53,083 bases of DNA. Origin: Candidatus Omnitrophota bacterium. GTDB taxonomy: Bacteria; Omnitrophota; Gorgyraeia; VGKH01. The stretch spans positions 1 through 53,083 of the forward strand of contig VGKH01000004.1 of NCBI GenBank assembly GCA_016867135.1. The letters run 5' to 3'. The position numbers and the translations under genes are program-made. The notes under the pieces are model-generated. The model did not search any database. It was given only the letters and a program-made list of their open reading frames with translations, and had not been told where the DNA came from. Shown here piece by piece: positions 4,106 through 39,837 of this stretch; position 1 is the first letter of the stretch; each line of letters begins with the position of its first letter.

Positions 4106-4241
4106 TTTACTTTTTATTTCTAAGTGGTACACTGAATATAGAAAATTCGGGAAAAAGAGTGGGTCCGGGATAATACCCCGGAGGTAAAATATTTGATGGT
4201 CGGGCCGCCATCTTGCTAAATATGCAGGATGGCGGTTTTTT
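4106..4241 (+). promoter_or_regulatory. Promoter with structured leader and attenuator-like terminator ahead of the cell-wall operon
   Basis: Possible promoter TTTACT (4106-4111), 16 bases, TACACT (4128-4133). The predicted leader contains hairpin TCCGGG/CCCGGA (4164-4169 with 4177-4182) and then CCGCCATC/GATGGCGG (4205-4212 with 4228-4235) followed by six Ts. The terminator lies between the promoter and the first gene at 4273, so this is either an attenuator or riboswitch expression platform, or a separate small RNA. It matches no riboswitch class I know. Confidence 0.5.
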
Positions 4242-28061: not shown

Positions 28062-29633
28062 CTAAAGTAGCGGCAGGTATTTCTTGATTTCATGCTGCGA
28101 AATCTGAATTCTGTATTCTTCCCATTCTTTTTTCTTATTAAATAAGAACCTGCTAAATATATGTTCTCCTAGCGCATCTTTTACGAACTTACTTTTCTCG
28201 GTCTCTAAAATAGCCTCAAAGAGGTTTCCGGGAAGGGGAGTAAGCTTGCGTCTTTCTCTTTCTTCCATCGCCATATGATAGATGTTCGGCTCGACCGGTT
28301 CCGGGATTTTGTATCTACTTTCTACGCCTTCAAGCCCGGCTGCTAGCATCACAGCAAAAGCTAAATATGGGTTGCAGGCAGGATCGGGGCAGCGTAGTTC
28401 TACTCTGGTAGCCTTTTCATTTCCCGGTCTATATACAGGAACCCTGATTAATGCTGTTCTGTTTTTTTGTGCCCAAGAGATATAAACCGGCGCTTCATAT
28501 CCGGCAACTAATCTTTTATAAGAGTTTACCCACTGCGCGACAAGAGAGGAGATTTCTCTGGCGTGCTTGAGCTGTCCGGCGATAAATTGTTTTGCAGTTG
28601 TCGAAAGATGATATTTATCTTTGGGATCAAAGAAAGCATTTTTATGTCCATGTCTGCCGGCGGCAGATCCGCCTCTGGCGGAAAACAGCGACTGATGTAC
28701 ATGCATGCCAGAACCGTTGACCCCAAAAAGCGGCTTAGGCATAAAAGTGGCATAAACACCGTGCTGCTGGGCTACTTCCTTGATAACGTATTTAGAGGTT
28801 ATGACGTTATCGGCGGCTGTTAAAGCATCAGTGTATTTAGGGTCGATTTCATGCTGGCTGGGCGCAACTTCATGGTGAGTTGCTTCCATGGTAATGCCCA
28901 TATCTTCTAAGATTCTTACGGTTTGATTCCTTAAAGTATTGGCGAGATCATTGGGGATCAATTCAAAATAGGATCCTTCGTCAATAATCTCAGGTTTTTT
29001 ATCGCCTTTAAAATAAAAATACTCAATTTCTGGGCCGACATTAAAAACAAACCCAAGTTTTTTAGCCCGGCTGATAGCGCGTTTCAACACATGCCTGGTG
29101 TCGCCATCGTAAGGGGATCGGTCAGGATTTAAGATATCACAGAACATCCTAGCTGTTGGATTGGTTTCTTTGGTCCAAGGTAGGATTTTAAAGGTAGTAG
29201 GATCAGGTTTAGCGATTATATCACTTTCCTCGGCTTCGGCAAAACCTGCGACTGAAGAGCCGTCAAATCCTTTTCCGTGAGCCAACGCTTCTTTTAGCTC
29301 GCCTTCGGTTATTGAGACGCATTTTAATATACCTAAGATATCCACAAACCAAAGCTGGATAGTTTTTATGCCATGTTTTTCAACGCTTGTCAAAACCTCT
29401 TTTGCGTCTTGAGTAATTTCTTCTTTTGGCTCTATAGTAGAAGGGGAGGTAGGTATTTTTATTCTTTTGGCCCTGGCCTTTTTATCTAATTTTATCAGGT
29501 CTTTAGGGATAATATACTGCCTTCCCGCTTTTTCAGCAGAGATGGCGCCATGTTTTATGCGGTCGATGACCGCTTGTCGGCTTATGCCCAGTATTTTAGC
29601 TGCCTCGGTGGGGCTTAAGTATTCTTTCTTCAT
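28062..29633 (-). CDS. glnA: Type I glutamine synthetase with N-terminal HTH DNA-binding domain
   Basis: ATP-dependent ligation of ammonia to glutamate. 523 residues, about 75-80 more than a standard GSI-alpha. Residues about 5-50 read as an excisionase/MerR-like helix-turn-helix (SPTEAAKILGISRQAVIDRI, then AGRQYIIPKDLIKL), followed by a Lys/Pro linker and the full GS: beta-grasp with KTIQLWFVDILG, KGFDGSSVAGF, PEIEYFYF, HHEVAPSQHEID, NGSGMHVHQS, and EPNIYHM at the place of the adenylylation loop. Adenylylation seems unlikely. Ribosome site GAGG. Its promoter lies inside a 49-bp palindrome, so the fused HTH may bind there. Confidence 0.93.
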   Translation of the reverse strand: MKKEYLSPTEAAKILGISRQAVIDRIKHGAISAEKAGRQYIIPKDLIKLDKKARAKRIKIPTSPSTIEPKEEITQDAKEVLTSVEKHGIKTIQLWFVDILGILKCVSITEGELKEALAHGKGFDGSSVAGFAEAEESDIIAKPDPTTFKILPWTKETNPTARMFCDILNPDRSPYDGDTRHVLKRAISRAKKLGFVFNVGPEIEYFYFKGDKKPEIIDEGSYFELIPNDLANTLRNQTVRILEDMGITMEATHHEVAPSQHEIDPKYTDALTAADNVITSKYVIKEVAQQHGVYATFMPKPLFGVNGSGMHVHQSLFSARGGSAAGRHGHKNAFFDPKDKYHLSTTAKQFIAGQLKHAREISSLVAQWVNSYKRLVAGYEAPVYISWAQKNRTALIRVPVYRPGNEKATRVELRCPDPACNPYLAFAVMLAAGLEGVESRYKIPEPVEPNIYHMAMEERERRKLTPLPGNLFEAILETEKSKFVKDALGEHIFSRFLFNKKKEWEEYRIQISQHEIKKYLPLL

Positions 29634-29664: not shown

Positions 29665-29713
29665 TTACTTGTCAATTGTAAAGTATAACATTTACTTTAC
29701 AATTGTCAAGTAA
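29665..29713 (-). promoter_or_regulatory. glnA promoter embedded in a 21-bp inverted repeat
   Basis: Arms 29665-29685 and 29693-29713 are inverted copies with one mismatch and a 7-base spacer. On the minus strand -35 TTGACA (29704-29709) and -10 TATACT (29682-29687) with a 16-base spacer lie wholly inside. Each arm is itself an imperfect palindrome around CAATTG. This is a strong operator candidate; the binder is unknown. Confidence 0.8.
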
Positions 29714-29785: not shown

Positions 29786-30490
29786 ATGGCAAAGGCTTCC
29801 TATAAATCCTATATCGATGCGTTAAATAAGATTAGTAAGGCTATCACCTCAGATTTGTACTTAGAGGATATGCTTAAACTTATCGTCACTTTGACTGCCA
29901 ACGTGATGAAAGCCAAGATCTGCGCGCTATGGCTTTTGGATGAAGCCTCGCAGCAGTTAAAGATAAGGGCAACTCAGGCAATGAGCCAGGAATATCTTAA
30001 GGAAAGAAGTCTAAAGGTCGGTGAGGGAATTGTGGGTTTGGTTGCTAAGGAAAAAAAACCCGTAGTTATATTGGATGTTTTAAATGACTCCCGCTATAAA
30101 GAGAAGAAGCTTGCCCAAAAAGAAGGCTTGGTTTCCATGATTAGTGTTCCGATGGTAGAGAAAAACAGAGTCATTGGGGTAATAAATTGTTATACTACCG
30201 CCGCCTATAAATTTACCAAAGGCGATATTGACCTTTTGAGCGCGGTAGCCAATCAGGCAGCAGTAGCTATTGAGAATACAGAACTGATAGTCAAGACTAA
30301 GGTTATCCAGGAAGAATTGGAGACGCGCAAAAAGGTTGAGAAGGCTAAAGGCATTTTGATGAGAGAGCAGAATATCCTAGAAGATGACGCCTATAATTTA
30401 ATAAGGAGATCCAGCATGGATAAACGCGTGCCGATGAAAGAAATTGCCGAAGCAATCATCTTGTCTTATGAAATCAAGAAAGGCCGTTAG
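29786..30490 (+). CDS. GAF-ANTAR transcription antitermination regulator
   Basis: 234 residues. GAF sensor domain (about 15-165; LKVGEGIVGLVAKEKKPVVI, SVPMVEKNRVIGVINCY) and C-terminal ANTAR domain (about 175-230; KVEKAKGILM, then VPMKEIAEAII). ANTAR domains bind paired hairpins in nascent RNA and prevent termination, mainly in nitrogen metabolism (NasR, AmiR, EutV). Its place divergent from glnA fits that role. The GAF ligand is unknown and no phosphorylation domain is present. Confidence 0.92.
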   Translation: MAKASYKSYIDALNKISKAITSDLYLEDMLKLIVTLTANVMKAKICALWLLDEASQQLKIRATQAMSQEYLKERSLKVGEGIVGLVAKEKKPVVILDVLNDSRYKEKKLAQKEGLVSMISVPMVEKNRVIGVINCYTTAAYKFTKGDIDLLSAVANQAAVAIENTELIVKTKVIQEELETRKKVEKAKGILMREQNILEDDAYNLIRRSSMDKRVPMKEIAEAIILSYEIKKGR

Positions 30491-34493: not shown

Positions 34494-36081
<1,588 letters not shown>

Positions 36082-36270
36082 CTAATTTTTTTAACAAGAA
36101 AATTAGGAACAATGGAACAAATCCAAGTGACAAAGTAATAACGAGAGCTAATTTTAACTCTCGGAAATACTTGGCTATTTTTCTTTTTTTAGGGAGTTCA
36201 CTATTTTGCTCCCATTAATTATTTGGAGAGCTGAAGGGCTCCCATTCTTTGTATATCAAAACTAAGAGTT

Positions 36271-36343
36271 GGGCCCATAGCTCATCTGGCAGAGCACCGT
36301 GCTGATAACGCGGGGGTGAGTGGTTCGAGTCCACTTGGGCCCA
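36271..36343 (+). tRNA. tRNA-Ile (GAT)
   Basis: Full cloverleaf: acceptor GGGCCCA/TGGGCCC, anticodon loop CTGATAA, T arm AGTGG-TTCGAGT-CCACT. Genome-encoded CCA not present. In the 16S-23S spacer, its usual place. Confidence 0.97.
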
Positions 36344-36483
36344 TTTTTGCCGTAGTTTAAAACTCAGGCAAAAATGGCACTGAGTAGATTTAGTTCTGAT
36401 GAAATTGATGAAGTGCCTTTCAAAGGTCCTTCGGCCACTAGCCTCAGGACCAAAAATTTTTTCATTAATGAAAAAATTTTTGG
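36341..36483. repeat. Two processing-type palindromes between the spacer tRNAs
   Basis: CCATTTTTGCC/GGCAAAAATGG (36341-36351 with 36367-36377) starts in the last bases of tRNA-Ile. A perfect 34-base palindrome at 36450-36483, arms of 17 around CATTAATG, ends on the first two bases of tRNA-Ala. Likely RNase III-like processing or a repeat insertion. Confidence 0.65.
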
Positions 36484-36557
36484 GGCAGTAGCTCAGCTGG
36501 GAGAGCACCTGGTTTGCAACCAGGGGGTCGGCGGTTCAAACCCGCTCTGCTCCACCA
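36482..36557 (+). tRNA. tRNA-Ala (TGC)
   Basis: Acceptor GGGGCAG/CTGCTCC, anticodon loop TTTGCAA, T arm with GGTTCAAACC, encoded CCA end (36555-36557). Follows tRNA-Ile in the rRNA spacer. Confidence 0.97.
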
Positions 36558-36684
36558 AAATTTAATACAAAAAATTTTAAATTAGAATTTATTCGCAGAA
36601 ATTTCCGCCTTTGGCGGATCAGCCTTTGGCTGATGCGATTGGTTCTTTGATAACTACATAGCGGAAAAAGACGGTTTTTTGTGT

Positions 36685-39667
<2,983 letters not shown>

Positions 39668-39719
39668 ACTTTAATTGTCTTTTATTCGCAATGTAGTTAT
39701 TGAAATTCTAGATGTAGAT

Positions 39720-39837
39720 TTGGAGTGTCTATTCCGAGGAGGAAACACCCGTTCCCATTCCGAATACGGTAGTTAAGCTCCTCAGGGCCCATGGTACTGA
39801 TGTCGCGAGGCTTCGGGAGAGTCGGTCGATGCTCCTT
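39720..39837 (+). rRNA. rrf: 5S ribosomal RNA
   Basis: Terminal stem GGAGTGTC/GATGCTCC (39722-39729 with 39828-39835), CCCATTCCGAATACGG and GTTAAGCTC loop. About 118 bases. Confidence 0.93.

Follow-up and report, generated by a model that had tools for sequence, protein, structure and literature searches.

The glnA locus and its promoter

The DNA considered here is a stretch of 53,083 nucleotides (the window) from the 1.41-Mb assembly of a Candidatus Omnitrophota bacterium. Its minus strand carries HTH-glnA, which encodes a glutamine synthetase (GS) with an N-terminal winged HTH, hereafter HTH-GS, and the gene lies divergent from one for a GAF-ANTAR protein, likely an RNA-binding antiterminator (Table 1). 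Elsewhere on the plus strand are an nhaA-I riboswitch (4161-4213; 47.8 bits in Rfam, above the gathering score) and a complete rRNA operon (34494-39837) composed of 16S, tRNA-Ile, tRNA-Ala, 23S and 5S.

Table 1. Features of the HTH-glnA locus, in coordinates of the window
Feature	Position	Strand	Basis
HTH-glnA, type I glutamine synthetase with N-terminal winged HTH, 523 aa	28062..29633	-	HTH_17 and GSI profiles
GS beta-grasp and catalytic domains, residues 89-519	28077..29369	-	PF03951 and PF00120
Predicted disordered linker between HTH and GS, residues 50-69	29427..29486	-	pLDDT < 50 in the full-length model
HTH_17 / excisionase-like MerR-type winged HTH, residues 5-45	29499..29621	-	Pfam profile; AF2 model
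Near-perfect inverted repeat, two 21-bp arms (29665-29685 and 29693-29713), 7-bp spacer	29665..29713		Repeat search and shuffle estimate
Operator O2, TTTACAATTGACAA, one mismatch to consensus	29669..29682	-	Comparison with relatives
glnA -10 hexamer TATACT, preceded by TG (extended -10)	29682..29687	-	Promoter scoring
Operator O1, TTGACAATTGTAAA, holds the -35 hexamer	29696..29709	-	Exact match to the conserved palindrome TTKACRNNYGTMAA
glnA -35 hexamer TTGACA	29704..29709	-	Promoter scoring
Divergent GAF-ANTAR gene	29786..30490	+	Domain profiles; beside HTH-glnA in 8/25 loci

The glnA promoter is of sigma-70 type, with 11 of 12 consensus matches and hexamers separated by 16 bp, and it coincides with an inverted repeat whose arms are complementary at 20 of 21 positions. 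The coordinates, pairing and 7-nt spacer of this repeat are as a preliminary description of the sequence had given them, as is the palindromic character of each arm around CAATTG (ACTTGACAATTGTAAAGT). The same description had placed both promoter boxes inside the arms, which is true of the -35; the -10 lies across the junction between the spacer and the beginning of the other arm. The window has no second inverted repeat of such quality (arm of 21, at most one mismatch, spacer of at most 20), and no equal repeat appeared in 20 dinucleotide shuffles of the whole window or in 2000 shuffles of the 152-bp intergenic region.

Two operators at variable spacing

Relatives were gathered from genome contigs and from 384 genomes of the same phylum, which gave 25 distinct GS genes with an N-terminal HTH, and 65 HTH-less GS genes were taken as controls. 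The unit conserved upstream of HTH-glnA is a pair of 14-bp palindromes, TTKACRNNYGTMAA. The first of them, O1, overlaps the -35 TTGACA, and the other copy, O2, falls on the -10 or slightly beyond it. In the window, for example, O2 starts on the final base of the -10 and spans the predicted transcription start, with 27 bp between the centres of the two sites. Among the relatives this distance is 21, 26, 27, 28, 32 or 33 bp, with no phase-locking to the DNA helix, and the second site is not always inverted relative to the first.

The large repeat is imperfect or missing in most relatives, which nonetheless keep both operators. Hence the operators, and not the 21-bp inverted repeat, are to be regarded as the functional unit, and the repeat of the window is near-perfect because O1 and O2 chance to be mirror images there. 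The preliminary description had proposed a search for the palindrome upstream of HTH-glnA in relatives, and this search strongly bears it out across many Omnitrophota genera and families, in the form of the 14-bp palindromes and not of the repeat itself. The dimer-of-dimers geometry that had been read from the repeat fares less well: since the spacings are not phased with the helix, the repeat alone does not prove such an arrangement, and given their spread of 21-33 bp, cooperative binding by a single oligomer cannot be taken from the sites.

At one locus (L010:3860-4000) the leader from the operators to the ATG is long and carries a 10-bp perfect hairpin (ACGACTTAGT...ACTAAGTCGT). Another operator-like site, the third at this locus, overlaps O2. 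A leader RNA element was considered and rejected, as Rfam gave no match around glnA, whether in the window or at L010, L011, L104 and L014.

Co-occurrence with the HTH, and joint gain and loss

Both operators lie upstream of 23 of the 25 distinct HTH-GS genes. Of the other two, L026 has O1 alone, and the 5' flank of L023 stops at a contig end. A pair with the 28-bp spacing of the L023 family is found in the same genome, behind lpxB where contig C51 ends (lpxB and, below, dnaA are named by sequence recognition); lpxB synteny links this pair, by inference, to the L023 glnA, which was thus rejected as a true exception. The operator pair is upstream of none of the 65 HTH-less GS genes, some of which come from Omnitrophota and are 65-72% identical, and the best pair scores of the 65 are those of shuffled sequence. 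The absence of the palindrome from the upstream regions of HTH-less glnA fits HTH-GS as the regulator. This part of the preliminary description, that the palindrome belongs to a GS with HTH arms, is supported, with the unit and its geometry corrected.

Circularity was checked across clades, with a symmetric matrix trained on one deep clade and used to scan the whole loci of the other. With the matrix of clade A, the best-scoring single site and the best-scoring pair both fell at glnA in 16 of 16 clade-B loci of 4.5-9.5 kb. Likewise, with the matrix of clade B, glnA held the top single site in all eight loci of clade A and the top pair in seven. The strict co-occurrence of the operator pair with the HTH, and its placement on the promoter, can be considered established by comparison.

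The evolutionary history of the HTH points the same way. In a maximum-likelihood tree built on the GS part without the HTH, two changes are needed for the HTH; these are taken as a single gain and a nested loss, that of L106 in genome G189 (support of the enclosing group, 100/100). L106 stands after lpxB, as in its relatives, and retains a TTGACA-17-TACACT promoter from which the operators are absent; the G189 genome has no exact motif match anywhere and yields only very weak HTH matches in a profile search. The tree, together with this promoter without operators, indicates that HTH and operators arrived together and disappeared together, the pattern predicted when one of them reads the other. 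All 25 HTH-GS loci descend from the single gain and are therefore not 25 independent origins; the strict coupling rests on one gain, one loss and the independent turnover of spacing and context.

Motif targets and genomic neighbours

The exact motif matches HTH-glnA in all 19 HTH-GS genomes (in G352, at a probable split-off promoter). The remaining exact sites in these genomes, about 21, are all single, 19 of them within coding sequences and two, in G001, outside; a reversed control pattern gave about as many. No second convincing target was found in the 19 genomes and a wider regulon was rejected, so that the operator pair is seen, at the level of motif matches, to be confined to one gene, HTH-glnA.

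The neighbours of HTH-glnA vary by lineage and include the GAF-ANTAR gene (8 of 25 loci, the window among them), a dnaA-like gene (three), lpxB upstream (seven) and a second GS gene (one), and the operators are retained beside each of these. As it accompanies HTH-glnA in eight of the 25 loci, the GAF-ANTAR gene is not an essential part of the system. A repressor encoded next door was similarly rejected, there being no constant neighbouring regulator gene across the 25 loci. The second GS gene, at L013 (genome G162, contig C40), is HTH-less and divergent from HTH-glnA, with the operators between the two.

The HTH-GS protein

The GS part is of type I (alpha-like), with PF03951, PF00120 and TIGR00653 all above cut-off. 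Its catalytic motifs are conserved in the alignment, and the enzyme is therefore probably active. The HTH scores 31.7 bits with PF12728 (cut-off 27) and also matches the NCBIfam excisionase HTH. The AF2 model gives it, with good confidence, a winged alpha-alpha-beta-beta fold (H8-15, H19-28, E34-36, E39-43). The closest solved folds to this model are DNA-bound BldC (TM-score up to 0.85), phage Xis, RdfS, DNA-bound RacA and SoxR; a sequence search of the PDB with the HTH profile returned nothing significant. The recognition helix SRQAVI and the wing G..YII are invariant or nearly so among the 25 proteins, with R19, Q20 and A21 of the helix and G37, Y40, I41 and I42 of the wing invariant in all. 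HTH-GS holds a DNA-binding domain that is conserved along with its candidate operator. Between wing and GS core, the HTH-GS proteins differ in length by 16 residues, and a disordered tether of variable length, as modelled, could explain the freedom of operator spacing.

In Bacillus GS, Arg62 contacts the regulator GlnR and stabilises the glutamine-bound state (PMC9249791). The corresponding residue 133 is Glu in all 25 HTH-GS and in 15 close HTH-less GS, and Arg in nearly all distant GS; the region reads GF-x-R-IEES in Bacillus GS versus GFAEAEES in HTH-GS and their closest HTH-less relatives (L028-L036 among the loci noted). As those HTH-less relatives share the Glu, the loss of the arginine predates the HTH, and with the arginine missing the feedback switch or signal of Bacillus cannot be assumed for HTH-GS.

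The genome of the window also encodes, on contig C28 (L171:240-917), a standalone HTH protein of 85 aa that is about 45% identical to the GS HTH. Its gene adjoins one of Fic/Doc-like type (HPFQNGNKRIAM), an arrangement like that of a toxin-antitoxin pair, and the GS arm may have derived from a small HTH of this kind.

Probable autorepression and its alternatives

These observations are best explained if HTH-GS binds its own promoter and represses its own gene, a reading that may be given a probability of about 0.8. HTH-GS would then be a trigger enzyme, that is, enzyme and transcription regulator in a single polypeptide. Its MerR-like winged HTHs, each tethered by a flexible linker some 20-30 residues long, would bind O1 and O2 as pairs. 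Since these sites overlie the -35 and the -10/start of the gene's own promoter, bound HTH-GS would block RNA polymerase, and the level of HTH-GS would be held down by negative autoregulation. Type I GS is generally a dodecamer; the HTHs would pair through this oligomer, and the flexible linker would let any of the observed operator spacings be used. From the comparisons above, we infer the HTH of GS as the binder of O1 and O2, repression as the result of binding, and the oligomer as the means of HTH pairing. A nitrogen-excess signal is a natural guess for what gates the binding, though the canonical glutamine-feedback arginine is absent.

It is unlikely that a separate repressor encoded elsewhere binds O1 and O2, the HTH of GS serving otherwise, for example in tethering or at another DNA target. 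The TACANNTGTA core (TTTACAATTGTAAA) does resemble the BlaI/MecI/CopY box, and a standalone HTH paralogue of 86-112 aa occurs in 6 of the 19 HTH-GS genomes. However, a BlaI/MecI repressor was rejected, as a PF03965 protein is present in none of 20 genomes and the profile scores in 7 of 14 control genomes. Close standalone paralogues are missing from the other 13 genomes; the HTH of GS is the sole HTH of its profile found in all 19. The lack of a constantly adjacent regulator gene and of a second convincing motif target likewise speaks against such a repressor, and the operators vanish exactly where the HTH was lost, in L106.

HTH-GS may instead be imagined at O1 and O2 as an activator, or with a mixed effect through MerR-like remodelling of the promoter, given its MerR-like fold. 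MerR activators bind between the -35 and the -10 of long-spacer promoters, but the promoters here have normal spacers of 16-17 bp and near-consensus hexamers and hence need no remodelling. The sites over the -35 and the -10/start are classic repressor positions, and a predicted disordered linker follows the HTH in place of the MerR coiled coil, all of which makes activation or a mixed effect very improbable. That the repeat is only a strong promoter with chance symmetry, TTGACA and TATAAT generating the apparent sites, is scarcely credible: the -35 TTGACA makes up half of O1, so that part of the conservation is promoter conservation, but the remaining half of O1 (GTMAA) and the whole of O2 are non-promoter sequence and yet conserved at differing spacings, the promoters of HTH-less GS genes, L106 included, are without operators, and the shuffles gave no equal repeat.

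Autorepression by HTH-GS may be extended to a one-protein nitrogen sensor and repressor, in which the assembly or ligand state of the oligomer decides whether the HTH arms pair on O1 and O2. This extension is tentative and is held at somewhat below even odds.

Relation to known systems and significance

Bacterial nitrogen metabolism has in GS one of its central switches, and the route by which the state of the enzyme reaches the promoter is a classic question (NtrBC, GlnR/TnrA). The nearest parallel is the GlnR-GS pair of Bacillus, where a MerR-like winged HTH governs the glnA promoter and has its activity coupled to the GSI-alpha enzyme, with long flexible linkers joining two DNA-binding domains on a palindrome (PMC9249791). 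GlnR, however, is a separate protein whose C-tail touches feedback-inhibited GS (PMC9249791), whereas HTH-GS bears the HTH as an N-terminal fusion. The GlnR box is TGTNA-N7-TNACA (PMC3412718, PMC9249791), in contrast to the HTH-GS operator TTKACRNNYGTMAA, and GlnR is linked also to amtB and other genes, whereas glnA is the only target seen for HTH-GS. With its HTH fused, its operator different and the equivalent of Arg62 missing, HTH-GS falls outside the GlnR family.

Other likenesses are partial. The closest solved folds, BldC, the Xis/RdfS excisionases and RacA, share the MerR-like single winged HTH, but they are small or otherwise unrelated proteins and not enzymes, with 16-26% identity to the GS HTH. 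The DNA-binding part of PutA is a ribbon-helix-helix and that of BirA a different HTH, and both are different enzymes from GS. HTH-GS would nevertheless resemble them as trigger enzymes, since PutA and BirA, metabolic enzymes, act as repressors of the operon for their own pathway (PMC6978683). HTH-GS would work as though GlnR and GS of Bacillus were joined in one protein, and may be grouped in concept with PutA and BirA. No description of an HTH-fused GS of such design was found in the open-access literature, and reports outside that scope are possible.

The host phylum has almost no known regulators, and the present case, with its operator sequence, its separable domains and a relative from which both parts have been lost naturally, is directly testable in vitro. 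A GS that carries its own DNA-binding arm, if true, would be nitrogen readout in its minimal form, with one protein, two short sites and one promoter. If HTH-GS is also the sensor, then the two proteins of Bacillus, enzyme and repressor, would be merged in one, and a lineage from which the canonical feedback arginine had already gone must sense something else, or sense it differently.
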